Origin: a virus
Direction: 5' to 3' (one strand)
IMG/VR virus record: IMGVR_UViG_3300010354_000315
Location: 1-33,381 of that record
Length of the DNA: 33,381 bases
Shown one piece after another: positions 410 to 32,864 of the stretch; within the stretch, counting starts at the first letter, position 1; the number at the start of each line of letters is the position of its first letter. Position numbers and translations under genes: made by a program. The notes under the pieces are model-generated. The model was not told the origin of the DNA. It saw only the letters and a list, made by a program, of their open reading frames with translations, and did not search any database.

Positions 410-2059
410 ATGGCATTTAATTTTTTCGGATTCGAATTTGGTAAGTCTAAACAAGAGAAGCCCCTTTCATTTGCCCCGCCTCCATTAGATGACGGGGCTT
501 CTTTTGTTGAGGCAGGCGGTCTTCAAGGTTATTATATAGATCTTGATGGCACTCTGCGTTCAGATTCTGATTTAATTAGAAAATATAGAGAAATGAGTTT
601 ACATGCAGAAGTGGACATGGCAATTTCTAGCATTATAAATGATTTTATAACAGAAGATGCTAAAGGAATATTTGTAAAATTAAACACAGATAGAGTAAAC
701 TTACCATATCCTATTAGAAAAATAATAATTGAAGAGTTCAATGAAGTTTTAAAATTATTAGATTTCAATAGAAAAGGATTTGAAATAGCAAGAAGATGGT
801 ATATTGATGGTAAACTATATTATCATCAAATTTTACACGATGATCCTAAAATGGGTCTAAGAGAACTTAGACAAATAGATCCACTGAAAATAAAAAAAAT
901 AAAAGAAGTAACAGATAAAACACGTTTAAACAACGTTGATATGATTACAGATTACATCGAATATTATGTTTATACCCCATATGAAAAAACAAACAGTTAT
1001 ATAACATCAAACGAATCTATACAAGGACTAAGAATATCTGCAGATGCAATTAATTATGTGCATTCTGGATTATATGATTCAGTCTCAAGACGTATAGTTA
1101 GCCATTTACACAAGGCTATTAAGCCACTCAATCAATTGAGAATGATTGAGGATGCTACAGTAATCTATCGTGTTTCTAGAGCACCAGAACGTCGCGTGTT
1201 TTATATAGACGTTGGATCTCTGCCAAAAGTAAAAGCAGAACAATATTTACGCGATCAGATGAATCGCTATCGAAATAAAATTGTTTATGATGCTGGAACT
1301 GGAGAAATTAGAGATGATAAGAAGCATATGTCTATGCTTGAAGATTTTTGGCTACCACGCAGAGAAGGCGGTAAAGGTACAGAAATTTCAACATTGCCTG
1401 CTGGACAAAACTTGGGTGAAATGGCAGACGTAGAATATTTCCAAAAGAAATTATATATGTCATTAAATATACCAATAACCCGTATGCAAGCAGATAATGG
1501 ATTTAATATGGGTCGTTCATCTGAAATTACTAGAGATGAATTAAAATTTGCAAAATTTATAGACCGTATGCGTGTAAAATTTGCTGAATTGTTCACTAAT
1601 TTCTTAAGAACACAATTATTGGCAAAGGGTATAATGAATGATGTCGATTGGAAGGATATTGAACAAAATCTAAAGGTTGAATTTTCAACCGATTCTTACT
1701 TTCAAGAGTCTAAACAAACAGAATTAATAAAAGAAAGATTGGGAGTTTTACGAGAAGTTGCAGATTATTCTGGTAAATTCTTTTCAGATAAATGGATACG
1801 TAAAAACATTCTTCGACAAACAGATGATGAAATTGAAGAAATTGATCGTGAAATTGAAGAAGAGAAGGCCATACAAACTGCAGAAATTGAGGCTCAGGCA
1901 GCACAACAGCAAACTGAAGCCGCAGCCGAAGCTGAACAACAAGCCCAATCAGGTGGAACAGCTGAACAACCACCACAACAAGAAACTGCCCCAGCAAAAC
2001 AAGAAGTTCAGGAGCAACCTATAACTAAAAATATTTACGACGTAAGTGATTTGCTCTGA
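410..2059 (+). CDS. 20: Portal vertex protein gp20
   Basis: Forms the dodecameric portal at one capsid vertex, which nucleates head assembly, anchors the packaging motor and joins the tail. The 549 residues compare with 524 in T4. Recognisable family segments are DLDGTLRSDSDLIRKYREM near residue 45, the PEVD-like stretch HAEVDMAISSIINDFI, and the central RAPERRVFYIDVGSLPKVKAEQ region with the LPAGQNLGEMADVEYFQ clip/stem region after it. The C-terminal 60 residues are a low-complexity Gln/Glu/Ala/Pro tail (about residues 480-535), probably disordered and longer than in T4. The start at 410 follows an AGGA ribosome site. It lies between gp19 and an accessory island; in T4 and cyanophages the core genes 67/68/21 follow directly. 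Confidence 0.97.
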   Translation: MAFNFFGFEFGKSKQEKPLSFAPPPLDDGASFVEAGGLQGYYIDLDGTLRSDSDLIRKYREMSLHAEVDMAISSIINDFITEDAKGIFVKLNTDRVNLPYPIRKIIIEEFNEVLKLLDFNRKGFEIARRWYIDGKLYYHQILHDDPKMGLRELRQIDPLKIKKIKEVTDKTRLNNVDMITDYIEYYVYTPYEKTNSYITSNESIQGLRISADAINYVHSGLYDSVSRRIVSHLHKAIKPLNQLRMIEDATVIYRVSRAPERRVFYIDVGSLPKVKAEQYLRDQMNRYRNKIVYDAGTGEIRDDKKHMSMLEDFWLPRREGGKGTEISTLPAGQNLGEMADVEYFQKKLYMSLNIPITRMQADNGFNMGRSSEITRDELKFAKFIDRMRVKFAELFTNFLRTQLLAKGIMNDVDWKDIEQNLKVEFSTDSYFQESKQTELIKERLGVLREVADYSGKFFSDKWIRKNILRQTDDEIEEIDREIEEEKAIQTAEIEAQAAQQQTEAAAEAEQQAQSGGTAEQPPQQETAPAKQEVQEQPITKNIYDVSDLL

Positions 2060-2088: not shown

Positions 2089-3798
2089 ATGCCTGCAGCA
2101 TATTACGATTTATACGGCGAAGAAGGTGCATTTTTTGTATTAAAATTAAATTTATTAGATAAAGATGGGAAACCTGTAAATTTATCAGATTCTACCAAAG
2201 GATTTTATGTTCCAGAGGAACTGCAAGCATTGGGTATTCAATCTTCCGAAATACAATCTATAAATGGAAGATTGCAATTAAAATCTAATATTTTTAATGA
2301 AGATTCTATAATATTATTTAAGAGTGATGGCCCAACCACATCTGAAGGGTCAATTATATTAAAAGACAGTTTAAATAATAAAACTTTAGATCATAATATA
2401 TTAATTCATAAAAAATTAACCAGAACAACTCTAATTTTAGGTCAATTGGAAGGCATGGAATTAGTTGAACCGGGAATAGGATTGGTTCCACAAAATTTAA
2501 TAGTCACTGATGTTAAGGGAACTACTTATAGAATTACAACATCTAAATTAGGAAATCCTGACACAGAAGCAACATATCATAGTGCAGATAAACCGTATCC
2601 AAGAACACGATTATATACAACTGGAGGAAATTTTGGTGTATGTGATTACACACTTTCAAATGTGACAATAAATAAAGTTAATACCAAAGCATCATATTCT
2701 GAAGGAGAAATATTAGATCTAAATGTTGGAGCAGGCGGATTTCCGTGTGTATATTACACTTATGGCGCAAGTGAAGGTATAGGCACAGAAGATCCAATAG
2801 AAACTGAAAATTTAATCTACTATTTATCTGTGACTTCCTTATACGGTGCAGCAACTCCACAAGTTCCCAATCAAGGAGATATAATACCGTTTACAGGAGT
2901 AATAAATGGACAAACTGTAACTTTACCTTTTACAGTAGCAGTCAGATATGGTGGAACCCCACGGGAGGGTCGTTGGGATGCAGTATTTGGTTTATGGTAT
3001 GGTGGTGATACTTCTACTGGAGATTTTAAATCATATACAAAATTACAACAATTTTTTTCTACTGTATCTAGAACTAATAATATTACATTTACGCGCCAGA
3101 ATTGGAATGACGGTACCCCAAAGGGGTCAATTCCGGCTGGTGCAGGAACCGGAGTAATACAGGCACTAGGTGGTGCCCATGCAGTTTATTGTGGTGATAA
3201 ATCACAATGGAAGAACCCCCCAAATGCAGATGTTTTTAACACAGCAGCACAAAAATCATTAACATTAAATAATTTTCAAATAGATCCTAGAGTTATTACT
3301 GATATTGGTGGCAATCCTTCATCGGGGCCTTCAGGATCTGCAGAAAAAAGATTATATTTTTTATCTTGCTCTAAACAACAAAAATACTTAAACCAATGGG
3401 ATGGTTGGGCAGACGGGTTTGCACAATGTGGATGTTTAATGAAAATATATGCCGGAGCAGATAATACTGCAATAGAAACAATGAACACAAGAATAGTGGA
3501 TGAAGTAGCCACATCAGTTTTACCTGATGCAATATATGATTTAAAATCGGGCACAACTGGAGGCGTACCATCTGGAAAATTTATGAATGGAGTTGAAGTA
3601 CAAGATGGAAGAGATCTTATGCGTTATGTTACTCCAAAAATTAAAGTAACATCAGTATCCCAAAAAGACGTAAGCATTTTAGGAACGCATTTTTATGATC
3701 TAGAATTAGACTTTGTTGTTACCGGAGCAAATGCAGGCACTTATACAATAAGAATGATGCAAGGAAAGTTTACAATTTCACCAGAGGTAAGTTTCTAA
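2089..3798 (+). CDS. Putative structural protein, 569 residues, function unknown
   Basis: I do not recognise a named family. The protein is rich in Gly, Thr, Ser and Asn with many short beta-strand patterns, no membrane segment and no signal peptide, which suits a virion surface or baseplate/fibre component. Its first 45 residues (MPAAYYDLYGEEGAFF, then KDGKPVNL) resemble the first 40 residues of the small protein at 28982-29371 (MPAGIFDI, then DVAINLTG), so both may start with the same beta-rich attachment domain; this is weak. The second half has a Cys-containing patch (FLSCSKQQ, FAQCGC near residues 425-452). It is preceded by a late promoter box and AGGAG ribosome site, and its stop overlaps the next start by one base, so it belongs to the late structural island. 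Confidence 0.7.
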   Translation: MPAAYYDLYGEEGAFFVLKLNLLDKDGKPVNLSDSTKGFYVPEELQALGIQSSEIQSINGRLQLKSNIFNEDSIILFKSDGPTTSEGSIILKDSLNNKTLDHNILIHKKLTRTTLILGQLEGMELVEPGIGLVPQNLIVTDVKGTTYRITTSKLGNPDTEATYHSADKPYPRTRLYTTGGNFGVCDYTLSNVTINKVNTKASYSEGEILDLNVGAGGFPCVYYTYGASEGIGTEDPIETENLIYYLSVTSLYGAATPQVPNQGDIIPFTGVINGQTVTLPFTVAVRYGGTPREGRWDAVFGLWYGGDTSTGDFKSYTKLQQFFSTVSRTNNITFTRQNWNDGTPKGSIPAGAGTGVIQALGGAHAVYCGDKSQWKNPPNADVFNTAAQKSLTLNNFQIDPRVITDIGGNPSSGPSGSAEKRLYFLSCSKQQKYLNQWDGWADGFAQCGCLMKIYAGADNTAIETMNTRIVDEVATSVLPDAIYDLKSGTTGGVPSGKFMNGVEVQDGRDLMRYVTPKIKVTSVSQKDVSILGTHFYDLELDFVVTGANAGTYTIRMMQGKFTISPEVSF

Positions 3799-4022
3799 TG
3801 GCATATCTTGTAGTAATAGCAAAACAACCAAAAACTGTTTTTGAACTTTCAGAAAATAATTATTCTGTTAAAGATACATCTTTTGTTAAATCTAGACCAA
3901 TAGATTTGACACAAGATCCGGATTATGAAAGAATAACGCAAACAGTATCATTATTTGCACCACCAAGCAATATATTAGGTTGTGATGAAACGTACAATGT
4001 GATAAATGTATGTAATGAATAA
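3798..4022 (+). CDS. Small 74-residue protein ending in a shared Cys module
   Basis: No known family recognised. The start overlaps the preceding stop (TAATG), indicating translational coupling. Its last 17 residues carry NILGCDETYNV followed by NVC (Cys62 and Cys72), then stop. The same pattern appears at residues 53-69 of the 205-residue protein (NLLGCADSFFV, then C69) and residues 18-34 of the 2002-residue protein (NLLGCDESFDV, then C34), where it is followed at once by Pro/Ser linker. So this protein looks like the stand-alone form of the N-terminal module, or a truncated relative that has lost its linker and distal domains. A role in docking these proteins to the virion is inference. Confidence 0.7.
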   Translation: MAYLVVIAKQPKTVFELSENNYSVKDTSFVKSRPIDLTQDPDYERITQTVSLFAPPSNILGCDETYNVINVCNE

Positions 4023-4025
4023 AAT

Positions 4026-4033
4026 AATAAATA
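4026..4033 (+). promoter_or_regulatory. Possible late promoter box (AATAAATA)
   Basis: One mismatch to the TATAAATA late box, placed in the 34-base gap between the 74-residue protein and the 205-residue Ser-rich protein, 23 bases before its start. Spacing to the start is like that of the exact boxes elsewhere in the window. The AT-rich background makes chance matches possible. Confidence 0.4.
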
Positions 4034-4056
4034 TAGTTTTATAGGTATTTTTAATT

Positions 4057-4674
4057 ATGAAAAAAGAAAGAAAAATAAAATTAAAAATACAAAATAAAAC
4101 TGTATTTAAGAGTAAAAATGTTTTATTGTTGTTTGATAATGCATTTAAAGAATACGAACCATTAAAATATAAAGACGCATTTTTAAATGAATTAGGTGTA
4201 CAGAGTGCACCTAATTTGTTGGGTTGTGCAGATTCGTTCTTTGTATTAGATGCAGATCCCTGTGATCCTCCTCCACCACCTCCGCCTCCTCCACCACCAA
4301 GTTCGTCCAGTTCGTCCAGTTCGTCTAGTAGTTCTAGTAGTTCTAGTAGCTCTAGTGGTGTTAGTAGCAGCAGTAGTAGTAGAAGAAGTTCTAGTAGCAG
4401 TGGTGGCCCATGCATAATACCCGGATGTTGTTTTAGCACCTGTCAATCATGCGAACTAGCATTAGATGGCACAGGAAGTGTTATCTTTGTAAATGGATGT
4501 CCTGTTTATAATTGTTTTGCTGCTTGTGCAAACGGCTGTAGGGATCCAAATTTGTGTGGTTCTAGTTCATCATCGTCATCATCAAGATCATCGTCATCAT
4601 CCAGCAGTGGTGGCGGAAGCGGATCTACTGGCACAGGAACTAGTGGACAAGGATTGGGAGTAACATTATTATGA
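4057..4674 (+). CDS. Pro/Ser/Cys-rich putative surface protein (205 residues)
   Basis: Unrecognised, but strongly organised. Residues 1-50 are basic and possibly folded; 53-69 carry the shared module NLLGCADSFFV with Cys57 and Cys69; 71-81 are eleven Pro; 82-115 are Ser tracts broken by GV and RR; about 118-167 form a compact domain with about ten cysteines (PGCCFSTCQSCE, CPVYNCFAACANGC) that suggests disulfides or metal binding; 168 onward is a second Ser tract ending in a Gly/Ser/Thr tail. The reading frame is real: the Ser codons mix TCN and AGY types, and the stop overlaps the start of the glycosyltransferase gene (ATGA). Probable role is a small linker-bearing virion surface protein, possibly modified by the neighbouring enzyme. 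Both statements are inference from layout and composition. Confidence 0.75.
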   Translation: MKKERKIKLKIQNKTVFKSKNVLLLFDNAFKEYEPLKYKDAFLNELGVQSAPNLLGCADSFFVLDADPCDPPPPPPPPPPPSSSSSSSSSSSSSSSSSSSGVSSSSSSRRSSSSSGGPCIIPGCCFSTCQSCELALDGTGSVIFVNGCPVYNCFAACANGCRDPNLCGSSSSSSSSRSSSSSSSGGGSGSTGTGTSGQGLGVTLL

Positions 4675-5456
4675 AAATATATCTATCATATTGGCCAAAT
4701 GGTTATGTAAATGGAATGACGGAAGAAGTTATGAATATGCATAAATTGTCTGTTCACTTGGTAAATAAAAATTACGGAGAATGTCATTTGATGACAGATA
4801 AAAAAGGTAAAGAATTATTAAAACATTTGCCTTTTAAATCTATAAGCACAGATTTAGACATAATTTCTAATGTAAGAACACACAATTGGGCTTTAGGTAA
4901 ATTATACACATATTACATGTTATCAAAATATGGCATAAATTTTTTACATTTAGATTATGATGTTTTTTTATGGAAACCTTTACCTGATACCTTTTTACAA
5001 AATTTGATATTTGCACAAAGTATAGATTACCATACACACTTTTATTGTGAAGAAATTTTTCAAAGAGAAGCAAAAAACAAATATTCGGCAAAAAAATTCA
5101 ACAATAATAACATTGCATACAATATGGGTATTTTTGGTGGAAGTGATTTGGATTTTATATCTAAATATTCAGAAGAGGCAATTGAATTGACATTAGATAA
5201 AGAAAATCAAAATTGTTATAATTCTATGGCAAATTGTTTTCATTCTTCAGTGGCGTGCTTTTGTGAGCAAATGTATTTAAGAATAACAGAGCAAAATTAT
5301 AATAAAAAAATAGAATGTTTATTCGGTACTCTAAGTGATCATAAAAAAATGGATAAATTGAGCGTTGAATACGGTTATACCCATTTAATAGGTGAAAAAC
5401 AAAATTTAACAGTTCATAAAAAAATAAAGAAAAGAATAATTGAACTCGGATTATAA
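4671..5456 (+). CDS. Putative GT-A type glycosyltransferase (DUF6734-like)
   Basis: Likely transfers a sugar from a nucleotide-sugar donor. Visible support: an N-terminal beta-strand start (MKIYLSYWP), the segment WALGKLYTYYML at residues 73-84, and FLHLDYDVFLWKPL at 91-104, in which Asp95-x-Asp97 has the form and position of the metal-binding DxD motif of GT-A enzymes such as GT32/GT8 and related bacterial families. NMGIFGG near residue 151 fits the acceptor-side segment of such enzymes. The 261 residues are a normal length. It overlaps both neighbours (ATGA at the start, TAATG at the end), so it is coupled to two poly-serine proteins. That placement suggests Ser O-glycosylation of the fibre linkers, but host-surface modification cannot be excluded. 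I am fairly sure of the fold, unsure of the substrate. Confidence 0.72.
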   Translation: MKIYLSYWPNGYVNGMTEEVMNMHKLSVHLVNKNYGECHLMTDKKGKELLKHLPFKSISTDLDIISNVRTHNWALGKLYTYYMLSKYGINFLHLDYDVFLWKPLPDTFLQNLIFAQSIDYHTHFYCEEIFQREAKNKYSAKKFNNNNIAYNMGIFGGSDLDFISKYSEEAIELTLDKENQNCYNSMANCFHSSVACFCEQMYLRITEQNYNKKIECLFGTLSDHKKMDKLSVEYGYTHLIGEKQNLTVHKKIKKRIIELGL

Positions 5457-8400
5457 TGACAGACCCACGATTAAATGACTGGTTTGTAGATAGAATAACA
5501 CAATCTAACCTTTTAGGTTGTGATGAGAGTTTTGATGTTCCTGTTTTTAATGTATGTGGTCCTGGAGGTCCACCAATATCAAGTTCATCTACTGCACCAC
5601 CCCCTCCGCCACCATCTTCATCGTCATCTTCATCATCGATTTCTTCCAGTTCATCTACTTCTTTAAACTGTTCTATCTTACCATATAAGTTAAGACTTCA
5701 GATGACTGATCATTATTATGTTGTAATGGATGCATCAAAAAACGGTTATCTCTCTGAAGTGCAGATACCTGGTACATTACCTAATAACAAATATTCTTCT
5801 TTTTTTATAAGAGCAGTTCCTGATTCAGGTATTGTTGATTTAACTCTTTGTTGTGATCAATATAATGCAAGATATGCTAGTAATTTAATTAGATTAAATT
5901 TAACAGTTCCTCCAAATTCAGTTCTTGTTAAAAATCTAATAGAAGTTAATAAATTAAATCCTTTATTGTTTAAAAAAGGCCCTTATTATTGGTATAAAGA
6001 AGAGGGATGTGCGTCCGCTTCCCCCGTTTTACTGAATGTTTATGCGTATGCCTTTTTGACTTGGTCTGAAGGCGCAAAAAAATGGTATTTTCAATATTAT
6101 GTTGTTGCTCCTGTGTGTTATACGGGTTCAGGTTGTGATAGTTTCACGGTAGCACCTGCAGATTTTAAATACCCAAACAGCTTTAGTGATCCCTGCATAG
6201 GATTCAATGAATTAAGCATGGATGTTATAGAACCATATAAAACTGTAAAAATACCAAGAATAGAACACGGTTCGTTTTTTACATGTAAAGATGGTTATGA
6301 ACTAGATTTACAATCACCATATCTGATTGAAGTGCCAAGATTTGGTAATAGGCTTGAAGAGTTTACTACTTACGATTTATATCACCAATCACCAGATAGA
6401 AGATCTCGTGGTGAAATAATCAATGAACCAATGATAGCCGAGGGACCGAGAAGATCTATTACCAACTATGCCCCATTTGCTTTGAACTGCAATACTGGTG
6501 CAATAGCACCCCCAAGTGTTCCTGGTGTAGATTGTTTTAATACAGTAGATTATAGATGTTATCAAGATTCTCTTTTTACTAGACTAGGAAGATATTTGCT
6601 AAATGTTGATTTTTATCGTTTTAGAGTTGAAGGTGACGCTTTTGTAAAATATTCGTATTACTATTACAGCACAGAAGTATATTGTTTACAAAAAGAACAA
6701 CCTTCTAGCAGCAGTAGCAGTAGCAGTAGTTCATCCAGACCTACAATTTGTTCTACTGCACCAGAACAAATTACTGTAAAATATACATTAGAAATTCCAA
6801 TTATTGAACAAGAAAATATCGTATATAAAACTTTTATATTCCAACAAACATTATATGCATTAAACATACAATATGTTAATTATCCAGTTTATAGTGCACT
6901 AAAACCAACAAAAACAACAACAAACAGCCCAAATAAAACAATAAAAATATTAGATTCAGAAGGGTTTAATGAGGCATCTGCACTATTTGATGTTGATGTT
7001 TGGGGACATATTAATGCATATGGCGTATTTGAAGATGGAGTTATAAAATATAAATTTGGGTTAACTTTTTATCACTCAGGAATATCTTGTAATAGTTATG
7101 ACAGTTCAGGTGTAAATTGTTTAGATTGCCCATACGAAAATAGAATTCCGACTCCAATAACATCTGTTGACTACACATATGATCAAGCAAAACAGATATA
7201 TGAGCAACAAGGAAGTTTTACTCCAAAATATAAGTTAACAGATGAAGCATGTAATTCTGTTATATTAACTTGTCCAGAAAAACTATGCCCAATCGGAACA
7301 GAAATACAAGAACTTTTTAAATTAAATGTTCAAAAATTATGTAGTGCTACACCGGATTCAGAAAAAATTTCATATATTGAAGCAGAACTTGTAAACACAA
7401 ATCCGGATGTTTGGATTCCCGGAAGAATTATAGATTCAGCAAATTATACTTGTCCGTCTGGTGGATTTTGGGATAGAGTAGTTTCTGTCGAGTTTATTGA
7501 CCTAGAAGATCCTGTTTGCAGATCTTCTTCTAGTTCTTCTAGTAGTTCGTCTTCTAGTTCTTCTAGTAGTTCGTCTTCTAGTTCTTCTAGTAGTTCATCT
7601 TCTAGTAGTCGTTGTCCTACAGCACCAGAATATATTCAAATATTTCATACATTAGAGGTAACCTCTTTTTATAATATAGGTGCACCAACACCAGAAACAA
7701 AATTATTTTGGTTCGTAGAAACCTTATATCCTTATCAATTAGAATATAATACTAATCCGGTGTATCTTCCACTTCAAGCTTCTGCTGCCATTGATGTTGG
7801 AGGTTTCCCAGACACAACAGTAAAAGTACCAACCTCTACATTTAATTTTCCAGCAAGTGGTGTTTTAGATTCGCCTGTTTGGTCCACGTCTATATTATAC
7901 CCACAAACTATAGGCGGAGTTACAAAATATTATTATAAAAGACACTTAAATACTCAAACTGGGGGTTGCACCGTTTTAACTGCAGGGTCTTGTTTATCAC
8001 AATGTCCAACTGACAGACAAATATTAACACCGGTGGTCCCCAAGATATATGATGGTAGCACAGAATTAACATCAGTATATAATCGTTTATATGTTCAAAA
8101 TTTAAAACCACTTTTTGTAATATCCACTGCAACTCCGGTTTGCACAGATACAAATCCGAATCCACCTGCAGTTGGAACATGTTGTTCTACGCTATTATTG
8201 CCAAATGAAACAACAGTCACGTTAATGCCTCTTTCGTTTACAAGAGATGGAACAACTGCGGAATATTGGAACACGGATACCGGAGAACTATTAGAATCCA
8301 ATCCATCAAATTGGAATAATCGTATGGTTTTATATGACGTAACCACAGGAGATGGCACTCCTTATCGTATTAGGAGGAAAATAGAATTAGATCTTGTTCA

Positions 8401-11400
8401 GTTTCCTGCTTGTTTTTCTAGTTCATCCAGTTCTTCAAGCCGCTCTTCTTCGAGTAGTTCTTCTTCATCATCTTCTAGTAGTTCAAGTAGAGCATTTTGT
8501 AACAAAACAGTAACATATACAATAGATGTTAAAAACCAATATTCAGGTTATGAAACTACAGGGTGTAAATTTATACATTATCTACATCAATGTACACCAG
8601 TAACCGGTGTCACAGGTAATCTAAAACGAACATATACAACCACATTGTACAATGAAGCAGATTTAACTAGTACTATGAGAAATACTAGGGATCGGTGTTC
8701 GAATCCGGCATATCAGGGTGATTCTATTTTATGGAGTAAATTACAAATAACCCACGAACCCGGAAACGTTGGTACAGGATTTAGCAATGGTAAGTTGGAA
8801 GTTTTGGGGTTTGTGGAATATGCTAAATGTTGTAATGAAGGAACAACAATACCAAATATTAGAAGTGAAGGATATACTGTATCACAAGCATGTTCCGGCG
8901 AACAAATAAAATTAAAATACGTAACAGCAGATTGTCACGGTGCTGTAAATGATGATATTGTGAGACTTGGGCCTATTGCTGGTGGTGCAATAGCTAATTC
9001 GTTTTATTTTGCAAAAAATACCCAAAATGAAAATTCTACTTGGTTATACCAATCCTCTTTTGCAGATGGACTTCCGGATTGGAATAATGGGGATTTAGGA
9101 TCATATAGAATATCTATGACCATATCTGATAACTGCAGTTCTAGTAGCAGTTCTTCTAGTTCATCATCCAGTTCATCTTCCAGCTCATCTTCAAGTTCTT
9201 CATCAAGTTCTTCATCAAGTTCTGCGTTATGTCCCAAGTTAATAAAAACAAAAATAACTTTTAAAAACAATAAACCAACAACACCAGAGCCGGTAAATAA
9301 TGTTATTTTTAATACCATAGTGGATAGAACCACGTTAACACCAGAGGGTCCAAATTCTCTACAATATTCTGCTAAAAAATTATATGAACCGGATATTAGC
9401 AGTTTTGAAAAAACTGCTAAAGTGGTGTGTGCCGATGGCAGTTATAGAGATTCCAAGTTGTGGGCATATTCGTCTTTTATTTTTAATCCTAGTACTCAAC
9501 AACTAAAATTAACAACTAAAATATATTCTGCAGGTTGTAATTGTTTTTCTGGCTGTGCATCTTGTTCGGATTTTAGAGTGCCAATTGTAAGCAGTGAAAA
9601 TGTTTCTGTTGCTGGATCGTATATACCAAGATTAGTTTACAATGAAGCCACTTGTTCAAATGTTGTTGGTTCGTTCTCAAGTGAACCGGAATATATAACA
9701 ACAACTGAAACATTTACATTATCATCATTTACAAATATTAATAATACATATACTGCTTCTAATGCAAGTATTGGATTCTCTATAGAATACCAAATAACAG
9801 ATGACCCCACTTGTATAGTGCCATCTTCTTCATCTTCATCCTCTAGAAACTATCCAATGTTTGCTTTATTGGGAGACAGTGGTGAATTGCCATTAGATGA
9901 AGATCTTAGAATTGCAAATGCAATAAAAGCACAGAATCCAGATTATATTATTCATATAGGCGATACTAATTATTATACACCGACAACAGGAACAGCATAT
10001 ACTAACGCATTTACAACAAATTTTTTCAATCTTTGGTCTGGAACTGGAAATTGGTTAAACAAAATGTATGTTGCTTTTGGTAATCATGATTTAGATTTAA
10101 GCACAGATTATGGCTTAACAATAATTAATAATTTATCTTTAGTTAGCAATGAAATAGGTTTAACAAATATAAACAATAGAAGATTATATTACGATTTTAT
10201 ATACCAAGGAATGCATTTTTTCGTATTAAACACAGGAAACACCCTCTGCGGTGACAGTATGACAGAAACAACAGGTTCTCCGAATAGGGATGCCAAACTA
10301 CAATGGACAACACAAACTACTGCAATAAAAGCGGCAATAAGAGCATCAACTGCACCTTGGAAAATATTAGTTTTACATAAAGCACCTTATACAAACGATA
10401 GCACCCACTATCCAGGTGTAACTAAAGCAAGAAATCTCGGAACTACTAATGGCATAGTAGACACACATAAATCTCTTGGAATAGACGTAGTGATATCTGC
10501 ACACTCTCACTTGTATGAACATCTAATAATAGATACTGTTAATTATATTGTTCAGGGAGCAGGTGGTGCAAACTTAAGGTGTCCTGTTTCTCCTCCCCAA
10601 ATAGGAACACAATTATCATATTGTTTAAAACACAGTTATACACTTTTAAAGAAAATAGATAATGGATCAATTTCAAATCTTATATTTGAAACAAGATCGA
10701 TTGATGATGAATTTATTGATTATGTAACACTAACTAAAAATACCAGTAGTTCATCGTCTTCATCATCCTCTTCTTCCTCATCCTCTTCTTCATCATCTTC
10801 TTCATCTTCCTCTTCTAGTAGTTCTAGTAGTTCTTCAGGAGTAAATCCAGTTTCAATTTATAGAATGAAAATTAGTTTTAATGGCACTCCATCATGTGGC
10901 CAAACTCTTTCAAATGTAACTTTTCAAGATAATCTTTATGTGTGTGATCCAACAAACCCAATATTCCATGTGCCACTAAAAGCAACAAGAGCACTTACTC
11001 CAACACAAGCAGGATATCCTTGTACAAATCTGTATAAATCAGTTTGCGCAAATAGTGTGTGCCTAGATTCTCCAATGTATGGGGTGTGTGGTCTTTATGA
11101 ACAAGATTATGGTGCAGGTGATATTAGAACTACAGTATATGTGAGAGTATTTGCAGAACCCTGTGTATGTGTAGACACCTATAATACACCAAATTGTTGG
11201 TATGGTAATTGTAATTCGGGTCAGTATAATATAGGAAATGTAACATCCATTACTTTATCGTTAGATAATGCTTGTATACAACCATATCAATTTAAATCTA
11301 ATTTTACAACATGCGCATGGGAGGCGAACTCTTTTGTTGGTATAGACGAAGTTGTATCTGATATTGCAGAAATATCTTTACCAATAAATCAACTAAATGG

Positions 11401-11464
11401 CACATATTCACTTACAACTATTAATTGGTCATGGCCTTTGGAATTAACAATTACAAAATTATAA
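5456..11464 (+). CDS. Giant modular poly-serine fibre/adhesin with a phosphatase domain (2002 residues)
   Basis: Probable host-contact virion protein. Order: shared module NLLGCDESFDV (18-34), Pro/Ser linker (41-70), then modules separated by Ser runs at about 417-428, 690-718, 988-1012, 1228-1256, 1457-1463 and 1764-1794. Modules after the runs begin alike (an early Cys and a beta-strand such as VKYTLE, IFHTLE, VTYTID) and contain D-x-x-x-W/Y: 512-516, 805-809, 1089-1093, 1332-1336 and 1871-1875. They look like diverged copies of one Cys-containing beta domain of 200-270 residues; the first (71-415) is longer and only loosely similar. Residues 1465-1763 are instead a purple-acid-phosphatase-like metallophosphatase. 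No signal peptide or membrane segment is seen. The start overlaps the glycosyltransferase stop. Fibre role is inference from size, modularity and neighbours; the reading frame is certain. Confidence 0.85.
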   Translation: MTDPRLNDWFVDRITQSNLLGCDESFDVPVFNVCGPGGPPISSSSTAPPPPPPSSSSSSSSISSSSSTSLNCSILPYKLRLQMTDHYYVVMDASKNGYLSEVQIPGTLPNNKYSSFFIRAVPDSGIVDLTLCCDQYNARYASNLIRLNLTVPPNSVLVKNLIEVNKLNPLLFKKGPYYWYKEEGCASASPVLLNVYAYAFLTWSEGAKKWYFQYYVVAPVCYTGSGCDSFTVAPADFKYPNSFSDPCIGFNELSMDVIEPYKTVKIPRIEHGSFFTCKDGYELDLQSPYLIEVPRFGNRLEEFTTYDLYHQSPDRRSRGEIINEPMIAEGPRRSITNYAPFALNCNTGAIAPPSVPGVDCFNTVDYRCYQDSLFTRLGRYLLNVDFYRFRVEGDAFVKYSYYYYSTEVYCLQKEQPSSSSSSSSSSSRPTICSTAPEQITVKYTLEIPIIEQENIVYKTFIFQQTLYALNIQYVNYPVYSALKPTKTTTNSPNKTIKILDSEGFNEASALFDVDVWGHINAYGVFEDGVIKYKFGLTFYHSGISCNSYDSSGVNCLDCPYENRIPTPITSVDYTYDQAKQIYEQQGSFTPKYKLTDEACNSVILTCPEKLCPIGTEIQELFKLNVQKLCSATPDSEKISYIEAELVNTNPDVWIPGRIIDSANYTCPSGGFWDRVVSVEFIDLEDPVCRSSSSSSSSSSSSSSSSSSSSSSSSSSSSSRCPTAPEYIQIFHTLEVTSFYNIGAPTPETKLFWFVETLYPYQLEYNTNPVYLPLQASAAIDVGGFPDTTVKVPTSTFNFPASGVLDSPVWSTSILYPQTIGGVTKYYYKRHLNTQTGGCTVLTAGSCLSQCPTDRQILTPVVPKIYDGSTELTSVYNRLYVQNLKPLFVISTATPVCTDTNPNPPAVGTCCSTLLLPNETTVTLMPLSFTRDGTTAEYWNTDTGELLESNPSNWNNRMVLYDVTTGDGTPYRIRRKIELDLVQFPACFSSSSSSSSRSSSSSSSSSSSSSSSRAFCNKTVTYTIDVKNQYSGYETTGCKFIHYLHQCTPVTGVTGNLKRTYTTTLYNEADLTSTMRNTRDRCSNPAYQGDSILWSKLQITHEPGNVGTGFSNGKLEVLGFVEYAKCCNEGTTIPNIRSEGYTVSQACSGEQIKLKYVTADCHGAVNDDIVRLGPIAGGAIANSFYFAKNTQNENSTWLYQSSFADGLPDWNNGDLGSYRISMTISDNCSSSSSSSSSSSSSSSSSSSSSSSSSSSSSALCPKLIKTKITFKNNKPTTPEPVNNVIFNTIVDRTTLTPEGPNSLQYSAKKLYEPDISSFEKTAKVVCADGSYRDSKLWAYSSFIFNPSTQQLKLTTKIYSAGCNCFSGCASCSDFRVPIVSSENVSVAGSYIPRLVYNEATCSNVVGSFSSEPEYITTTETFTLSSFTNINNTYTASNASIGFSIEYQITDDPTCIVPSSSSSSSRNYPMFALLGDSGELPLDEDLRIANAIKAQNPDYIIHIGDTNYYTPTTGTAYTNAFTTNFFNLWSGTGNWLNKMYVAFGNHDLDLSTDYGLTIINNLSLVSNEIGLTNINNRRLYYDFIYQGMHFFVLNTGNTLCGDSMTETTGSPNRDAKLQWTTQTTAIKAAIRASTAPWKILVLHKAPYTNDSTHYPGVTKARNLGTTNGIVDTHKSLGIDVVISAHSHLYEHLIIDTVNYIVQGAGGANLRCPVSPPQIGTQLSYCLKHSYTLLKKIDNGSISNLIFETRSIDDEFIDYVTLTKNTSSSSSSSSSSSSSSSSSSSSSSSSSSSSSSSGVNPVSIYRMKISFNGTPSCGQTLSNVTFQDNLYVCDPTNPIFHVPLKATRALTPTQAGYPCTNLYKSVCANSVCLDSPMYGVCGLYEQDYGAGDIRTTVYVRVFAEPCVCVDTYNTPNCWYGNCNSGQYNIGNVTSITLSLDNACIQPYQFKSNFTTCAWEANSFVGIDEVVSDIAEISLPINQLNGTYSLTTINWSWPLELTITKL
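7526..7597 (+). repeat. 24-base tandem repeat, three copies, in a Ser-coding tract
   Basis: The unit TCTTCTAGTTCTTCTAGTAG plus TTCG is repeated at 7526-7549, 7550-7573 and 7574-7597, the last copy differing only at its final base (A for G), followed by a partial fourth copy. Each unit encodes eight Ser, so gain or loss of a unit lengthens or shortens the linker without shifting the frame. It looks like recent slippage or unequal recombination. Confidence 0.9.
9191..9223 (+). repeat. 12-base tandem repeat in a Ser-coding tract
   Basis: The unit TCAAGTTCTTCA occurs at 9191-9202 and 9203-9214, with a partial third copy to 9223. It encodes four Ser per unit in the linker between the fourth and fifth modules of the giant protein. 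Upstream of it (from about 9137) are looser related units. Confidence 0.8.
9848..10744 (+). other. Purple-acid-phosphatase-like metallophosphatase domain inside the giant fibre protein
   Basis: Residues 1465-1763 of the 5456-11464 protein. All five family blocks are present in order: GDSG (Asp1474, the DxG form of purple acid phosphatases rather than DxH), GDTNYY (Asp1503, Tyr1506, matching GDxxY with its iron-binding Tyr), GNHD (Asn1543, His1544), LVLHKAPY (His1641) and SAHSHLYEH (His1683, His1685, matching GHxHxYE with Ala for Gly). From known chemistry of the family this would be a dinuclear metal phosphomonoesterase. The conserved ligands argue that it is catalytically competent. It is bounded by Ser linkers on both sides and replaces a regular module, so it seems to have been inserted as a unit. 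Confidence 0.88.
10745..10837 (+). repeat. Longest poly-serine tract (31 Ser codons)
   Basis: Thirty-one consecutive Ser codons (residues 1764-1794) joining the phosphatase domain to the last module. Codons are mainly TCT/TCA/TCC at first, giving a long pyrimidine-rich strand, then AGT appears at the end. The mixed codons show the run is kept at protein level and is not a simple microsatellite. Confidence 0.9.
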
Positions 11465-11470
11465 TAAATA
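11463..11470 (+). promoter_or_regulatory. Possible late promoter box (AATAAATA) overlapping the giant gene's stop
   Basis: One mismatch to TATAAATA, followed by CTATT. It begins within the stop codon of the 2002-residue gene and lies five bases before the ATG at 11476, so a transcript from it would begin at about that ATG. It may rather serve the core genes downstream. No clear ribosome site precedes 11476. Confidence 0.4.
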
Positions 11471-11475
11471 CTATT

Positions 11476-11664
11476 ATGATAAGTTATATTTTTAGAAAAA
11501 AAAGCGGTGTTTTAGAAATTGTAAGAAAATTTAATAAAGACAATTTTTTAAAACAAACAGAAAATGACAACAAAATTTTAGTTGTTACGGAAGATGATGT
11601 TAAACAAATATCTTCCCCTTTGGCTGAAGAAGTGGCACAATTAACTAAAAATATGAATTTATAA
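11476..11664 (+). CDS. Small hypothetical protein (62 residues)
   Basis: Not recognised. An ATG at 11425 in the same frame would overlap the giant gene by 40 bases; 11476, just after that gene's stop, is the likelier start. The protein begins MISYIFRKKSGVL, is basic in its first half and ends in a helical segment (PLAEEVAQLTKNMNL). Its place immediately before the prohead core genes, where T4 has genes 67 and 68, and the exact late promoter box at its end suggest a small head or core component, but nothing in the sequence proves it. Confidence 0.55.
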   Translation: MISYIFRKKSGVLEIVRKFNKDNFLKQTENDNKILVVTEDDVKQISSPLAEEVAQLTKNMNL

Positions 11665-11667
11665 ATA
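11660..11667 (+). promoter_or_regulatory. Late promoter box TATAAATA
   Basis: Exact late box overlapping the stop of the 62-residue gene and 25 bases before the first core protein start, with an AAGGAAAA ribosome site between. Likely drives the core-protein, gp21 block. Confidence 0.75.
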
Positions 11668-11691
11668 ATATATATAGAAAAAGGAAAAATT

Positions 11692-11976
11692 ATGTCATAT
11701 ATTAAAAATTTAATTGATGGTAATATTGAACAACTAAGAAGAGATGTAGAAGCGTCATTATATTCTAAATTGAATGCCAAATTAGATGAAAAAAGAGTAG
11801 AAGTAGCATCAAACATTTATAATGAAGGCGAATGTCTTCCTTGCTCTCAACAAGTTCAAGAAAGTAAAAAATTAGAAAATATGACAATAGAAGACTGTAA
11901 ACAACATTTAATGGATTCTAAAGATATGAGCGAAAAAGATGCAGCAGAAGAATGCCGCAGAATGAGGCGGGATTGA
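11692..11976 (+). CDS. Prohead core-like protein, first of two paralogues (94 residues)
   Basis: Small charged protein directly upstream of the prohead protease. Its N-terminal part (IEQLRRDVEASLYSKL, then LDEKRVEVASNIYN) resembles the helical segment that T4 gp67 and related internal head proteins use (for example KEEKIAIARNFL in T4). The next gene shows the same pattern, IEQLLYKKLSDRIEETRKE, so the two look like a tandem duplication that diverged in the C-terminal half. This copy has four Cys and a C-terminal half ending in EECRRMRRD. From position and pattern I call it a gp67-type core protein that helps scaffold the prohead; the exact T4 equivalent is unclear. A late promoter box lies just upstream. 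Confidence 0.65.
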   Translation: MSYIKNLIDGNIEQLRRDVEASLYSKLNAKLDEKRVEVASNIYNEGECLPCSQQVQESKKLENMTIEDCKQHLMDSKDMSEKDAAEECRRMRRD

Positions 11977-11978
11977 AC

Positions 11979-12266
11979 ATGAAAAAAAATATTACAAATT
12001 CAATCGAACAATTGTTATATAAAAAACTTTCTGATCGTATAGAAGAAACACGCAAAGAAATCGCATCATCTATATTTGAATCTCAATACAAAGGTGACCC
12101 TGAAGTTGAAAGATTAGCAACACCTTCCTCAGAAGAAGATGAAGATCCAAACGAAAAATATAGAGAGCAATATAAAAAATGTCAAGAAAAAGTAGCAGAC
12201 AAAAACCCAAAAGCAACAAAAAAACAATTAGAAAAATTAGTTAAAGATTGCATGGATAAGCAGTAA
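11979..12266 (+). CDS. Prohead core-like protein, second paralogue (95 residues)
   Basis: Begins two bases after the preceding stop. An upstream in-frame ATG at 11952 exists, but GAGGCGGG at 11964-11971 makes a good ribosome site for 11979. The N-terminus (NSIEQLLYKKLSDRIEETRK, then EIASSIFES) parallels the previous gene; the middle has an acidic stretch (SSEEDEDPNEKY) and the end is Lys-rich and helical. Small acidic/basic helical proteins before gene 21 are typical of T4 gp67/gp68 core proteins, which are cleaved by the protease during head maturation. Duplication of the core gene is the notable feature. Function is inferred from place and similarity to its neighbour. Confidence 0.62.
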   Translation: MKKNITNSIEQLLYKKLSDRIEETRKEIASSIFESQYKGDPEVERLATPSSEEDEDPNEKYREQYKKCQEKVADKNPKATKKQLEKLVKDCMDKQ

Positions 12267-12289
12267 GAAGTAAATAAGGAAAATAATAA

Positions 12290-12931
12290 ATGAAGCTCAT
12301 AACCGAACATACAACAGAAGTAAAACTGCTAACAGAAGAAAAAGAAGGCAAGAAGCATTTCTTTATTGAAGGAATCTTCATGCAAGCAGACCAAAAAAAC
12401 AAAAATGGTAGAATTTATCCATATCCAATTTTATCAAGAGAATGTGGTCGTTATGTAACAGAATATGTTCAACAAAATCGTGCTCTCGGTGAATTAGGGC
12501 ATCCAGAAGGCCCAACTGTAAATTTAGAAAGAGTTTCACATATTATTAAAGAATTAAATATAAATGGAAAAGATATTATAGGTAAAGCAAAAATTATGGA
12601 AACTCCATATGGAAAAATTGTACAAAATCTTATGGATGAAGGTGCAAAATTGGGAGTTTCTAGCCGTGGCATGGGTTCTTTAAGAGAATTTCAAGGTGTA
12701 AACATGGTTCAAGAAGATTTTTCATTGGCAGCTGTGGATATCGTTGCTGATCCATCTGCACCAAATGCTTTCGTAAATGGAATTATGGAAGGCAAAGAAT
12801 GGGTGTGGGAAAATGGTATAATTAAACCAGTAGTTATTGAAAAATACAAAAACGAAATATCAAAAACAAGTTCAAGAAAACTTGAAGAACAAAAACTGAA
12901 GATATTCAAGGATTTCTTATCAAAATTATAA
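12290..12931 (+). CDS. 21: Prohead core protease gp21
   Basis: Serine protease packed inside the prohead; it cleaves core proteins and the capsid protein after an (L/I)xE motif so that DNA can enter. The 213 residues match the T4 gp21 family. GELGHPEG at 68-74 holds the probable catalytic His71 and GVSSRGMGS at 122-130 the probable nucleophile Ser (124 or 125); DIVADPSAPNAF near 150 is the conserved family segment following the active site. The beginning KNGRIYPYPILSREC is also typical of phage prohead proteases. The start at 12290 follows AAGGAAA. It sits in the standard core-gp21-gp22-gp23 order. Confidence 0.95.
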   Translation: MKLITEHTTEVKLLTEEKEGKKHFFIEGIFMQADQKNKNGRIYPYPILSRECGRYVTEYVQQNRALGELGHPEGPTVNLERVSHIIKELNINGKDIIGKAKIMETPYGKIVQNLMDEGAKLGVSSRGMGSLREFQGVNMVQEDFSLAAVDIVADPSAPNAFVNGIMEGKEWVWENGIIKPVVIEKYKNEISKTSSRKLEEQKLKIFKDFLSKL

Positions 12932-12935
12932 ATTT

Positions 12936-12943
12936 TATAAATA
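12936..12943 (+). promoter_or_regulatory. Late promoter box TATAAATA
   Basis: Exact late box in the gap between gp21 and gp22, 33 bases before the gp22 start, with AAGGAG in between. Spacing fits a normal short leader. Confidence 0.8.
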
Positions 12944-12976
12944 TATTAGATTAATTGTCTAAGGAGATTACATAAA

Positions 12977-14188: not shown

Positions 14189-14205
14189 GTCAAAAAATAT
14201 TAAAT

Positions 14206-14213
14206 TATAAATA
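14206..14213 (+). promoter_or_regulatory. Late promoter box TATAAATA
   Basis: Exact late box 32 bases before the major capsid gene, followed by AAAGGAG ribosome site. It is expected to be one of the strongest late promoters. Confidence 0.85.
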
Positions 14214-28574: not shown

Positions 28575-28982
28575 ATGGAAAATAGTAATTCATTGGTTGA
28601 TTCTTTATTAGAAGTTTCTTTACAAAAAGAGGATGATTTTTTAAAAATTAAAGAAACTTTGACGCGAATCGGGGTATCTTCCAAAAAAGATAAAAAATTA
28701 TATCAATCGTGTCATATATTACACAAAAAGGGCAAATATTATATAGTTCATTTTAAAGAGTTATTTTTATTAGATGGGCTAGAATCAGACATAAGTGAAA
28801 CTGATATTGGCAGAAGAAACACTATAGCAAAATTATTAGAGGAATGGGGATTGCTGCAAGTAACCGATAAAGAAAAAGTTAATGCAATTATTACACCATT
28901 AAATCAAATTAAAATTTTACCACACAAAGAAAAGGCAGATTGGCAACTAGTACCCAAGTATCATATAGGAAAGAAATTTTAA
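28575..28982 (+). CDS. regA: RegA translational repressor
   Basis: Binds the start regions of phage early mRNAs (in T4 including gp44, gp45 and its own) and blocks translation. The 135 residues compare with 122 in T4. Very clear match: EDDFLKIKETLTRIGV (T4 EDFLKVKETLTRMGI), LYQSCHILHKKGKYYIVHFKE (T4 LYQSCHILQKKGLYYIVHFKE) and the C-terminal WQLVPKYHIG (T4 WKLVPKYTIG). There are about 10 extra residues at the N-terminus. Start at 28575; its stop overlaps the next start (TAATG). In T4 the polymerase gene 43 follows; here structural genes do. Confidence 0.97.
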   Translation: MENSNSLVDSLLEVSLQKEDDFLKIKETLTRIGVSSKKDKKLYQSCHILHKKGKYYIVHFKELFLLDGLESDISETDIGRRNTIAKLLEEWGLLQVTDKEKVNAIITPLNQIKILPHKEKADWQLVPKYHIGKKF

Positions 28983-29371
28983 TGCCAGCAGGAATTTTTG
29001 ACATAATAACTCCATGTAATTCTGATTTTGAATTAAACATTCAATATACTGATTATAATGATGTTGCCATAAATTTAACAGGAAAAAAATTTATTTTTTC
29101 AGTTAAAAGATCTTACTTATCTATACAGAGTGATCTATTTGGAATTTATAGTGACGTTTCTGCGACAACAGAGGGTGAATTAGAATACCCAAACTCAGAT
29201 AATATTTATGGGGAAATAAGTGTAACGGCTGCAACCGGGGAATTAACTATCAGTATTAGTAAAGACACGCTAACGGCATTAACTCCAGGAACATATTTTT
29301 ACAGTTTAAAAATGATAGGAACAACAACAGAAGTTATTTTAAGAGGTAAATTCGAATTAGAGGGCTTCTAA
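28982..29371 (+). CDS. Putative fibre/baseplate accessory protein with BppU-like beta fold (130 residues)
   Basis: Unrecognised by name. An ATG at 28940 overlaps regA by 43 bases; 28982 (TAATG overlap) is the better start. Content is beta-rich: FELNIQYTDYNDVAINLTGK, KFIFSVKRSYLS, GELTISISKDTLTAL then PGTYFYSLKMIG and a final strand ILRGKFELEGF. This order (strand, V.NLTG, F.V.R, ..., L.PGTYYY.L) is that of small N-terminal domains of phage upper baseplate/receptor proteins such as BppU. The start resembles the 569-residue protein at 2089-3798. Probably attaches fibres; moderate trust. Confidence 0.68.
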   Translation: MPAGIFDIITPCNSDFELNIQYTDYNDVAINLTGKKFIFSVKRSYLSIQSDLFGIYSDVSATTEGELEYPNSDNIYGEISVTAATGELTISISKDTLTALTPGTYFYSLKMIGTTTEVILRGKFELEGF

Positions 29372-29927: not shown

Positions 29928-32864
29928 ATGAGCATAATTAAACTTAAAAGATCAGAAACAGCAGCAGCAACACCAGCATCGCTTGAATACGGTGAAGTTG
30001 CTATCAATATTACAGATAAAAAAGTTTATATTGGTAATAGTTCAGAAAATCCTGTTTTGATTGTAGACGGTAACAATACAACGTCAGAAGGGGTTCAGGA
30101 TACTGCGGCCTCCCTGCTCACCTCTGGAACACATACAGGAATTATAGTATCTTATCCAGATACAAACAATGCAATCAATCTTTCAATTGATTCATCTGTT
30201 GTTACCCTTACAGGTACGCAAACACTAACAAATAAAACATTAACATCTCCAACATTTACAACTCCAATTTTAGGCACTCCTCAATCTGGCAATTTGAGCA
30301 ACTGCACAAGTTTACCAATATCAACTGGTGTGTCTGGACTTGCTTCTGGTATAGCAACATTCCTAGCAACACCTTCAAGTTCAAATTTAGCAACAGCAGT
30401 TACAGATGAAACAGGTTCTGGTTCTTTAGTATTTGCTACATCTCCAACACTTGTTACTCCAATTCTTGGTACTCCACAATCTGGTACATTAACTAATTGC
30501 ACCGGACTACCAATATCAACTGGTGTGTCTGGATTGGGAACAGGTGTTGCAACCTTCTTAGCAACGCCTTCAAGTGCAAATCTGGCAGCAGCAGTTACAG
30601 ATGAAACTGGAACTGGTAGTTTAGTATTCTCTGCTTCTCCTACATTCACTGGAACAGTAAACGGAGATGCAGCATTGTTCACTGGAGATATCACTGCAAA
30701 TAGATTCTTTGGACATCATGTTGGTGAACAACAAGTTGAAGTAAAAAATACAAGTGGTGTAACAATTCCAAACGGATATCCTGTATACATCACAGGAACT
30801 GTTGGAGCAACATCTGTTTTGGAAGTTGCAGCAGCAGATGCATCAAATTCTGGCAAGATGCCTGCAGTTGGTTTAACAACTCAAGAATTAATAGCAAATG
30901 CCACAGGATATGTTACTATCATGGGTACAGTTACACAGGTAGACACAAGCACCTATGCAGTTGGCAATACTGTATATGTTGCTCCGGGTGGTGGATTAAC
31001 TGTAACAAAACCAACGGGATCAAACTTAATTCAAAACATTGGTAAAGTTGGTAGAGTAAATTCAAATAATGGAGAAATCGTTGTTACTGGTCCTGGTCGT
31101 ACTAACGATGTTCCAAACACAATTCCTTCAAATGCAACATGGAACGGTCAAACAATAGGCGTTGCTTATGGTGGAACTGGAACAGCTACTGGAAGTATAA
31201 CTGGTACTGGAGCACTTACATTTACAGCCGGTGGTACTAATACAAATGTTACATTAGTGCCAAATGGTACAGGAAGTGTAGATGTTTCGTCCAAGAAAAT
31301 TATAAACCTTACAACACCATCATCTTCAACAGATGCAGCAACTAAGGGATATGTAGATTCTGTTGCTCAAGGACTCCATGTTCACTCAACGGTAAAGACT
31401 GCAACAACCACAACTTTAGCCACACTCACTGGTGCAACAGTTTCCTATGCAGGTGGGGCAATCACATGGACAGGTGGAAACGCAGCAAATGGTGCGTCTT
31501 TCAACGATGGTACTACATTAACTGCAAATAATACAGAAGCTTCAGCAGACAAGATATTAGTAAAGAATGAAGCAAGCGTTGGTGGTCTTGGTGCCGCATA
31601 TAATGGTGTATATTATGTCTACGCTGCAAGAGAACTGAGAAGATCATCTGATGGTGACGCTGCATCGGATTGGTTAGGTGGCGATTTCGTATTCGTAACA
31701 GACGGAACGACTTATGATAATACTGGTTGGGTTCAGACAAATAAAGTAACAACTCTTGATACTGACCCAATCGCTTTCCAACAATTCTCAGGTGCTGGAA
31801 CATTCACCGCAGACGAAACTACACTAACATTATCGGGTAGTGTTTTTAGCATCAAGAACACATATGTTGGTCAAACAAGTATTACAACATTAGGAACTAT
31901 TGCAACTGGTACATGGAATGCAACCGCTATTGGTGCAACTAAAGGTGGTACAGGACAAACAACATATGCTGCTGGTGATTTATTATATGCATCGTCATCA
32001 AGTGCATTATCAAAATTAACAATTGGTGCTAATAATTATGTTCTTACATCAGACGGCACAAATCCAGTTTGGACAGCAAACACAGGAACGGGAAGCGTTG
32101 TAAGAGCAACTTCTGCAACTTTATCCTCACCAACATTTACAACTCCAATTTTAGGTACACCACAGTCAGGTACACTTACAAGCTGTACAGGATTGCCATT
32201 GACTACTGGTGTAACTGGAACATTAGGAACCGCTAACGGTGGTACTAACTTGACCTCTTTCACATCTAAAGGATTAGTATACGCCTCATCCGCTAATGTT
32301 CTAGCAACAGGAAGCGTATTTGGTGTTACTGAATCTGGTGCAGCATCTAATACTAGAAAAATTAATATTACATCAACAGTCGGTGTTGCTACTGGATTTG
32401 AAGCAACCGAATCAACTTACGGTAGCACTGCTTTTATTGGTATAGGTTCTGATTATTCTGGTGCAATTCATTCATATTCTGCACCATATGTTTCTTTAAA
32501 TAATGGAACAACATCTACTTTAATTGAAGTTGGTCCTGCTGGAGATAGCACTATTCCCGTTTCGGCATATTCTTTTTATAGTCAATATGACGGTGGAATA
32601 AATCTAACATGGTTAACATCCTCAGATAATATGTTTTATGCAACTATTAAAATAGGCTTTGATTATTCCAGTAATTCATATATTACATTTGAAGACAATG
32701 CATCAAATGGCAACAGCATAAATATAATGGCAAACATACTGAAGATAAACACAACTACACCAGCATCAGGTAAGATATTGACTTGTACCGATTCAAATGG
32801 TACAGTATCTTGGGAAGATAATGCAGGAGCAACACTAGCAATTTATAACGCAGGAGTAATATAA
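29928..32864 (+). CDS. Tail fibre protein with repeats (978 residues)
   Basis: Likely trimeric fibre for host contact. The N-terminus [20 protein letters not shown] then [17 protein letters not shown] is the common phage fibre head that ends in a variable-length repetitive shaft. Residues 107-236 hold two tandem repeats ([43 protein letters not shown]), with a third, partial copy near 734-766. A central domain ([34 protein letters not shown]) and another with [20 protein letters not shown] and [12 protein letters not shown] occur in many marine phage fibres. Next comes [20 protein letters not shown], then a C-terminal part (780-978) without repeats, the probable receptor-binding end. No chaperone or protease signature such as a C-terminal S74 peptidase is seen. 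Confidence 0.88.
30246..30638 (+). repeat. Two direct repeats (about 195 bases each) in the tail-fibre gene, third partial copy at 32127
   Basis: 30246-30440 and 30441-30638 encode near-identical 65-residue units; a partial third unit (about 100 bases) lies at 32127-32225. Shared DNA such as ACTCCAATTTTAGG-like and CCTCAATCTGGC-like pieces shows common origin with synonymous drift. Confidence 0.85.

Follow-up and report, generated by a model that had tools for sequence, protein, structure and literature searches.

Among the described systems, the lateral fibres of phages T5 and DT57C and the baseplate fibres of phage 80alpha were compared with the locus studied here. In T5 and DT57C, a dodecameric p132/LtfC collar is the graft site of the lateral fibres; the N-terminus of LtfA adds two beta-strands to this collar, a helix follows from residue 40, and conservation is confined to this N-terminus, the remainder of the fibre having diverged (PMC10038345, PMC10713586). 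In 80alpha, two fibre types are carried on one baseplate (PMC7048315). Exchangeable fibre heads are an already known principle. The present study deals with an N-terminal, cysteine-containing module of three neighbouring proteins encoded by the IMG/VR record IMGVR_UViG_3300010354_000315, an uncultivated T4-like myovirus, whose complete sequence of 33,381 bases was analyzed and is referred to as the window. The module probably serves as a socket piece by which the virus can swap surface fibres.

A cysteine module in three neighbouring proteins

The preliminary description of this DNA had reported a Cys motif, with a Cys–Cys distance of 10–12 residues, in the proteins of 74, 205, and 2002 residues (p74, p205, and p2002). 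A scan of all six frames of the window with the pattern N[LIVM]{2}GC..[ST][FYW].V.{2,6}C bore this out, since it returned three occurrences, exactly in p74 (motif codon at 3969; C62/C72, distance 10), p205 (4213; C57/C69, distance 12), and p2002 (5507; C22/C34, distance 12). Based on composition, about 7e-6 occurrences of the core motif are expected by chance in the window proteome. The segments concerned are the following:

3798..4022, plus strand: p74, a standalone head consisting of an N-terminal beta-hairpin/helix region and a Cys hook at 3969-4013 (motif, profile, shuffle tests, and model)
4057..4266, plus strand: head of p205, residues 1-70 of the 205-residue protein, with a Cys hook at 4213-4263 (motif, alignment, and shuffle tests)
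4267..4674, plus strand: distal part of p205, comprising poly-Pro, poly-Ser, and a 10-Cys region (sequence)
5456..5557, plus strand: head of p2002, residues 1-34, a truncated module with a Cys hook at 5507-5557 (motif, alignment, and shuffle tests)
5558..11464, plus strand: distal part of p2002, a Pro/Ser linker followed by domains with Ser runs between them (segment analysis)

Behind the second Cys, p74 stops after two residues, the head of p205 is followed by P11 and then Ser runs, and that of p2002 by GPGGPP, then Ser/Pro and Ser runs. Smith–Waterman alignment of p74 with p2002 reached a score of 61, which none of 5000 shuffles attained; for p74 and p205 (score 46) and for p205 and p2002 (score 40), 1 and 5 of 5000 shuffles, respectively, scored as high. 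The likeness extends 5' of the Cys pair, with RITQ present in p74 and p2002 and QxKTVF in p74 and p205, and the shared unit is therefore larger than a Cys hairpin. The full unit is a diverged module of 60-75 residues that also occurs in relatives, of which the Cys motif forms the C-terminal part and p2002 retains just the last ~30 residues. Hence, the Cys pair noted previously is real, while the notion of a short Cys module has to be given up, the similarity upstream having been overlooked.

The heads of p74 and p2002 (3969-4022 and 5507-5557) resemble each other more than either resembles the head of p205, and an exact DNA 14-mer, TTAGGTTGTGATGA, is common to both across the motif. The p2002 gene looks as if its head was taken from p74. 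A reading of LLGC as a signal peptide or lipobox was rejected by eye, as the segments before LLGC are hydrophilic. A low-confidence model of p74 (predicted local distance difference test, pLDDT, 57; predicted template modelling score, pTM, 0.25) featured strands at residues 13-18 and 21-25, followed by a helix (residues 43-49).

Relatives of the module and the LtfC-like neighbour

The upstream part of the locus comprises two further genes:

410..2059, plus strand: gp20 portal, the upstream anchor of the slot (tblastn to portals)
2089..3798, plus strand: p569, a protein with an LtfC/p132/BppU-N-like domain, referred to as the AAYYD protein (alignment, phrog_1084 match at the C-terminal end, and fold match of the L105 relative)

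The portal was 50-53% identical to those of T4-like cyanophages and pelagiphages in tblastn searches, and portal identities of up to 61% were obtained for IMG/VR loci. In the window, the gene order is gp20, p569, p74, p205, the DUF6734 protein, p2002, small prohead-type genes, gp21, gp22, and gp23, some of the names being assigned by analogy with T4.

Searching the INPHARED phages by tblastn with p74, residues 1-81 of p2002, and p569 yielded nothing useful, one query giving weak matches to phosphate-transport genes, and peptide searches of viral contigs with p569 alone or p74 alone found no relatives. One codon-restricted scan of viral contigs for the strict motif produced six unrelated frames only; the strict pattern, proposed earlier as the mark of a family preceding Ser linkers, is as far as searched private to the window phage. 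Relatives were reached by way of the portal (loci L003 and L004) and by a search with the AAYYD protein encoded there (L103, L105, L106, and L107, later L111). In L003 and L004, gp20 and a Cys-rich protein of 852-875 residues are separated by a protein of 177-182 residues that starts with SAAYYD. All five loci of the second set encode a standalone protein of 74/75 residues with a terminal Cys hook at the position of p74, and thus share the window's order of portal, AAYYD protein, and standalone protein; the proposal that p74 is a head without cargo agrees with these orthologues. In L103, L105, L106, and L107, the first ~80 residues of the next gene correspond to the module and are followed by a Ser/Thr/Cys-rich linker. 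The assumed common head placed before different distal parts is therefore recovered, in standalone and fused form, at the same place in relatives, and the module in relaxed form does precede Ser-rich linkers in these four phages, where its absence would speak against the proposal. In L105 and L107, the Ser-linker protein comes after the module-fused protein.

The five other standalone proteins are diverged, being 15-24% identical to p74, and M1, E19, N20, C62, D63, and C72 are kept in the standalone proteins of all six phages. A hidden Markov model (HMM) of the five proteins from outside the window placed p74 as the first non-member among 4858 six-frame open reading frames (E=0.0072; next 0.59). 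With an HMM of the four fused heads, the L105 standalone protein ranked first (E=0.0013), and other standalone proteins and p74 were among the next matches. An HMM pooling all module types lost its specificity. By pairwise shuffle tests, each of p74, p205, and p2002 could be linked to relatives (p values of 0.001-0.014), including p74 with the L103 standalone protein (p=0.001), p205 with the fused head of L106 (p=0.002), and p2002 with the L105 standalone protein (p=0.002); random N-termini, used as control, reach p<0.02 in 1-3% of cases.

The position of the module is fixed as well. In 22 of 23 distinct contigs, the LtfC-like gene is followed by a gene with a Cys pair 9-16 residues apart within its first 100 residues, as against 22 of 167 other open reading frames (seven of them module carriers); these counts describe the family and are no independent test, because the pair criterion was set once the first loci had been inspected. 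In most contigs the LtfC-like gene and the following gene overlap or nearly touch. In the window, the p569 stop and the p74 start overlap by 1 base, p205 and the DUF6734 gene by 4 bases, and the DUF6734 gene and p2002 by 1 base.

The N- and C-terminal parts of p569 align to relatives of 147-199 residues, with an insertion of ~380 residues between them that is absent from the relatives. Its C-terminal part matches phrog_1084 (E=7.9e-5), a family also matched by 19 of the 22 AAYYD relatives; two relatives match phrog_3304, 'L-shaped tail fiber protein assembly'. The fold evidence comes from an AlphaFold2 model of the L105 relative (pLDDT 86.5, pTM 0.82), p569 itself being placed by the alignment of its two ends. 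In VIA-align, the L105 model was most similar to the T5 tail-tip chain 7qg9_L (Z 8.8), the DT57C baseplate chain 8hqz_T (Z 8.7), and the Douge baseplate chain 8zdo_a (Z 8.2), unrelated immunoglobulin chains started at Z 6.9, and the 80alpha chain 6v8i_AM reached Z 6.6, where values of this order may reflect common folds only. The three top chains are read as p132, LtfC, and BppU; this assignment follows from chain lengths of 140, 137, and 311 residues, the range covered by the alignment, and the corresponding papers. Foldseek with the same model returned mostly immune immunoglobulin domains with weak E-values, none ≤0.001; VIA-align set the phage collar proteins apart from such domains. It is the three collar/baseplate proteins at the top of the list, together with the family matches, that make the case for a collar fold. 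A collar-like protein with a BppU-N-like immunoglobulin fold, as found for the L105 model, is encoded next to a fibre gene. The gp20 protein was among those previously suggested for the prediction of a complex with the module; nothing was found in support of gp20 as the binding partner, and p569 is the likely partner.

A second pair of this kind is located further downstream:

28982..29371, plus strand: second LtfC-like/phrog_1084 protein, upstream of the 978-residue fibre (profile match; gene order in other contigs)
29928..32864, plus strand: 978-residue fibre of the second collar-plus-fibre cassette (gene order)

The smaller protein matches phrog_1084 at 2.6e-10. The same family precedes a similar fibre in two of three other contigs checked (L195 and L202) and other proteins in the third. 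This second pair therefore supports the collar-plus-fibre reading without reliance on the Cys module.

Exchange of distal parts and other head types

Two further features lie among or within the fibre genes:

4671..5456, plus strand: DUF6734 protein with a DxD-type motif (HLDYD), putatively glycosyltransferase-like (PF20508, E=1e-43)
9869..10513, plus strand: calcineurin-like metallophosphatase domain within p2002 (PF00149, E=9e-12; blastp to L107)

The segment of p2002 from residue 1403 to 1761, a Ser linker plus the phosphatase, shares 44% identity with residues 14-356 of the third protein of L107 (blastp, ~360 residues), which is encoded at 10727-14209 and carries a different N-terminal head without a Cys hook. 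In L111, RCC1 repeats stand behind a head resembling that of L107. These two comparisons establish that a given distal domain can follow more than one kind of head, and that similar heads can carry unlike distal parts. The phosphatase is embedded in a fibre in both the window (9869-10513) and L107 (10727-14209). Moreover, a second common head (YKI..I...G), absent from p2002, precedes Ser linkers in L105 (5384-7921), L107 (10727-14209), and L111 (4418-6094); the L105 and L107 proteins at the position of p2002 carry this YKIKEIL-type head.

Comparable Cys heads precede poly-Pro/Cys-rich or collagen-like fibres in other phages. Heads of the L003, L137, and L099/L101 types also follow an AAYYD gene, and in L003, L137, and similar loci the comparable head is fused to a protein of 850-990 residues at the position of p74. 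The L137 and L099/L101 types are linked with E=2e-7 and 1e-6, the L003 type more weakly (best E=0.007), and the tie of all these types to that of the window is weak, resting mainly on synteny. In L124, L126, L134, L141, L142, and L002, collagen-like Gly-X-Y repeats and Cys-rich regions come after a short Cys head; these heads are treated as analogous to the window module, and homology is not claimed.

The product of 4671-5456 is a clear member of DUF6734 (150 bits versus a Pfam gathering cut-off of 27), as is a protein in the corresponding slot of L142 (8120-9043). DUF6734 genes thus occur among the fibre genes of two phages with different fibres. The window protein is a possible glycosyltransferase that would modify the Ser linkers by sugar transfer, as suggested by the DxD-type motif, the gene overlaps, and the presence of the family in the L142 slot.

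A proposed docking head and the alternatives

On balance, we lean towards the view that the module is an N-terminal head that docks virion-surface fibres and brings their chains into register, with an LtfC-like collar holding it. In this model, a fibre set would be encoded between the portal (gp20) and the prohead genes of T4-like phages. The full head of 60-75 residues would consist of a beta-hairpin region, a short helix, and an extended hook with two cysteines 10-13 residues apart, which may form disulfides after release. The domain of p569 would most likely form a ring into which the heads fit, just as LtfC takes up the N-terminal strands of LtfA, and the linkers and distal parts behind the head (Ser runs, poly-Pro, and Cys-rich domains) would be free to vary. 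As a conserved cargo-less head, p74 would probably fill fibre-free collar positions or pair with the heads of p205 and p2002. Docking to the neighbour is inferred, as are the disulfides, the oligomeric state, the placement on the virion, and the function of p74; for attachment at a single virion site, the adjacent LtfC/p132-like gene offers indirect support. A further-reaching version, in which one LtfC-like ring carries several fibres via the Cys-clamped head, p74 fills or regulates sockets, and the glycosyltransferase-like enzyme decorates the Ser linkers, so that a mixed-fibre rack results, must be regarded as speculative and rather doubtful.

Several observations weigh against a collar-docked head. 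The gene after the LtfC-like gene in L014 is the exception to the Cys-pair rule, and the Ser-linker proteins of L105, L107, and L111 have another head without the window module. The tie between the window module and the L003/L137/collagen types is weak (hhalign E=9e-4, probability 23%), and the collagen-type phages possess no AAYYD/LtfC-like gene in the slot. A comparison of the module profile with the PDB sequence set produced no credible match to a solved structure, and the likeness of the p74 model to the LtfA N-terminus is only suggestive because the model is poor. Furthermore, the ring could be located on the neck or head, since the genes adjoin head genes and not tail genes.

A doubtful but serious alternative is that the module is only a folding or trimerisation cap, which registers three chains and forms inter-chain disulfides, with virion attachment residing elsewhere and p74 acting as a free cap or chain-terminating subunit. 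This would explain why linkers or, in other phages, collagen-like repeats in need of a registration point come immediately after the Cys pairs, and it fits a head that is reduced to ~30 residues in p2002 and the collagen types. However, the near-invariant synteny with the LtfC-like neighbour (22 of 23 contigs) and the gene overlap point to a partner, and the N-terminal 50 residues are retained in the standalone form. It is unlikely that p74 is a small non-virion chaperone of fibre assembly, of the T4 gp57A kind, whose likeness to the heads stems from its action on them; its size, its position before the fibre genes, and the conservation of the standalone protein in six phages suit such a role, but a chaperone would need no sequence likeness to the heads, and the standalone module sits where other phages have the N-terminus of the fibre itself. 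The fusion of a comparable head to a protein of 850-990 residues at the same position in L003, L137, and similar loci could mean that p74 is the relic of a fibre gene without its distal part; five diverged phages keep a 74/75-residue standalone protein with the same conserved residues, which suggests selection and makes this origin very unlikely.

Equally improbable is a capsid-targeting sequence of internal head proteins cut by the gp21 protease, for which the genes between gp20 and gp21 and the [LIV]-x-E before the invariant N20 of the standalone proteins could be quoted. The other fused heads and p2002 are without a conserved site at that place, E19-N20 fits a turn between two predicted strands of p74, and the distal parts (Ser runs, Cys-rich regions, RCC1, metallophosphatase, and, elsewhere, collagen) as well as the LtfC-like neighbour look like those of surface fibres. 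Finally, the idea that the three motif copies arose by chance or from the composition of Cys- and Ser-rich proteins, in keeping with a strict motif found in no other viral contig searched, is refuted for practical purposes by the shuffle tests, the expected count of 7e-6, and the homologues at syntenic positions.

If the docking-head reading is true, it provides a way of recognizing fibres in many uncultivated T4-like phages: after the portal gene, an LtfC-like gene is to be sought, then a two-Cys head, whose distal part is the candidate host-binding cargo. A shared socket with exchangeable fibres would also become testable with small soluble proteins. Literature searches on DUF6734, on polyserine fibres of phages, and on collagen-like fibres next to gp20 brought up no report of the window system; the Far-T4 paper does not mention collagen, and its excerpt discusses no fibres in the gp20 slot. 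The library entry of phrog_1084 gives no function, whereas the family is tied to fibre cassettes here, which, if the docking-head reading holds, would suggest one.

Compared with T5 and DT57C, the window likewise encodes a small Ig-like (BppU-N-like) protein together with a fibre, with a conserved N-terminus and diverging distal parts in both systems, and the low-confidence prediction for p74 is suggestive of the two strands and following helix of LtfA. The excerpts of the T5 and DT57C reports mention neither a Cys hook nor a standalone head protein, and they concern a siphophage tail tip, whereas the window belongs to a T4-like phage whose slot, next to the portal gene, holds several fibre genes; sequence homology between the two kinds of fibre head was not detectable in the PDB sequence set. 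FibU and FibL of 80alpha offer a further parallel, as a BppU-like Ig domain is joined to fibre parts, one of them collagen-like (PMC7048315). In 80alpha, Ig domain and fibre form one protein, while in the window they are encoded by separate genes, and a link between the two products, if there is one, would be the Cys head.

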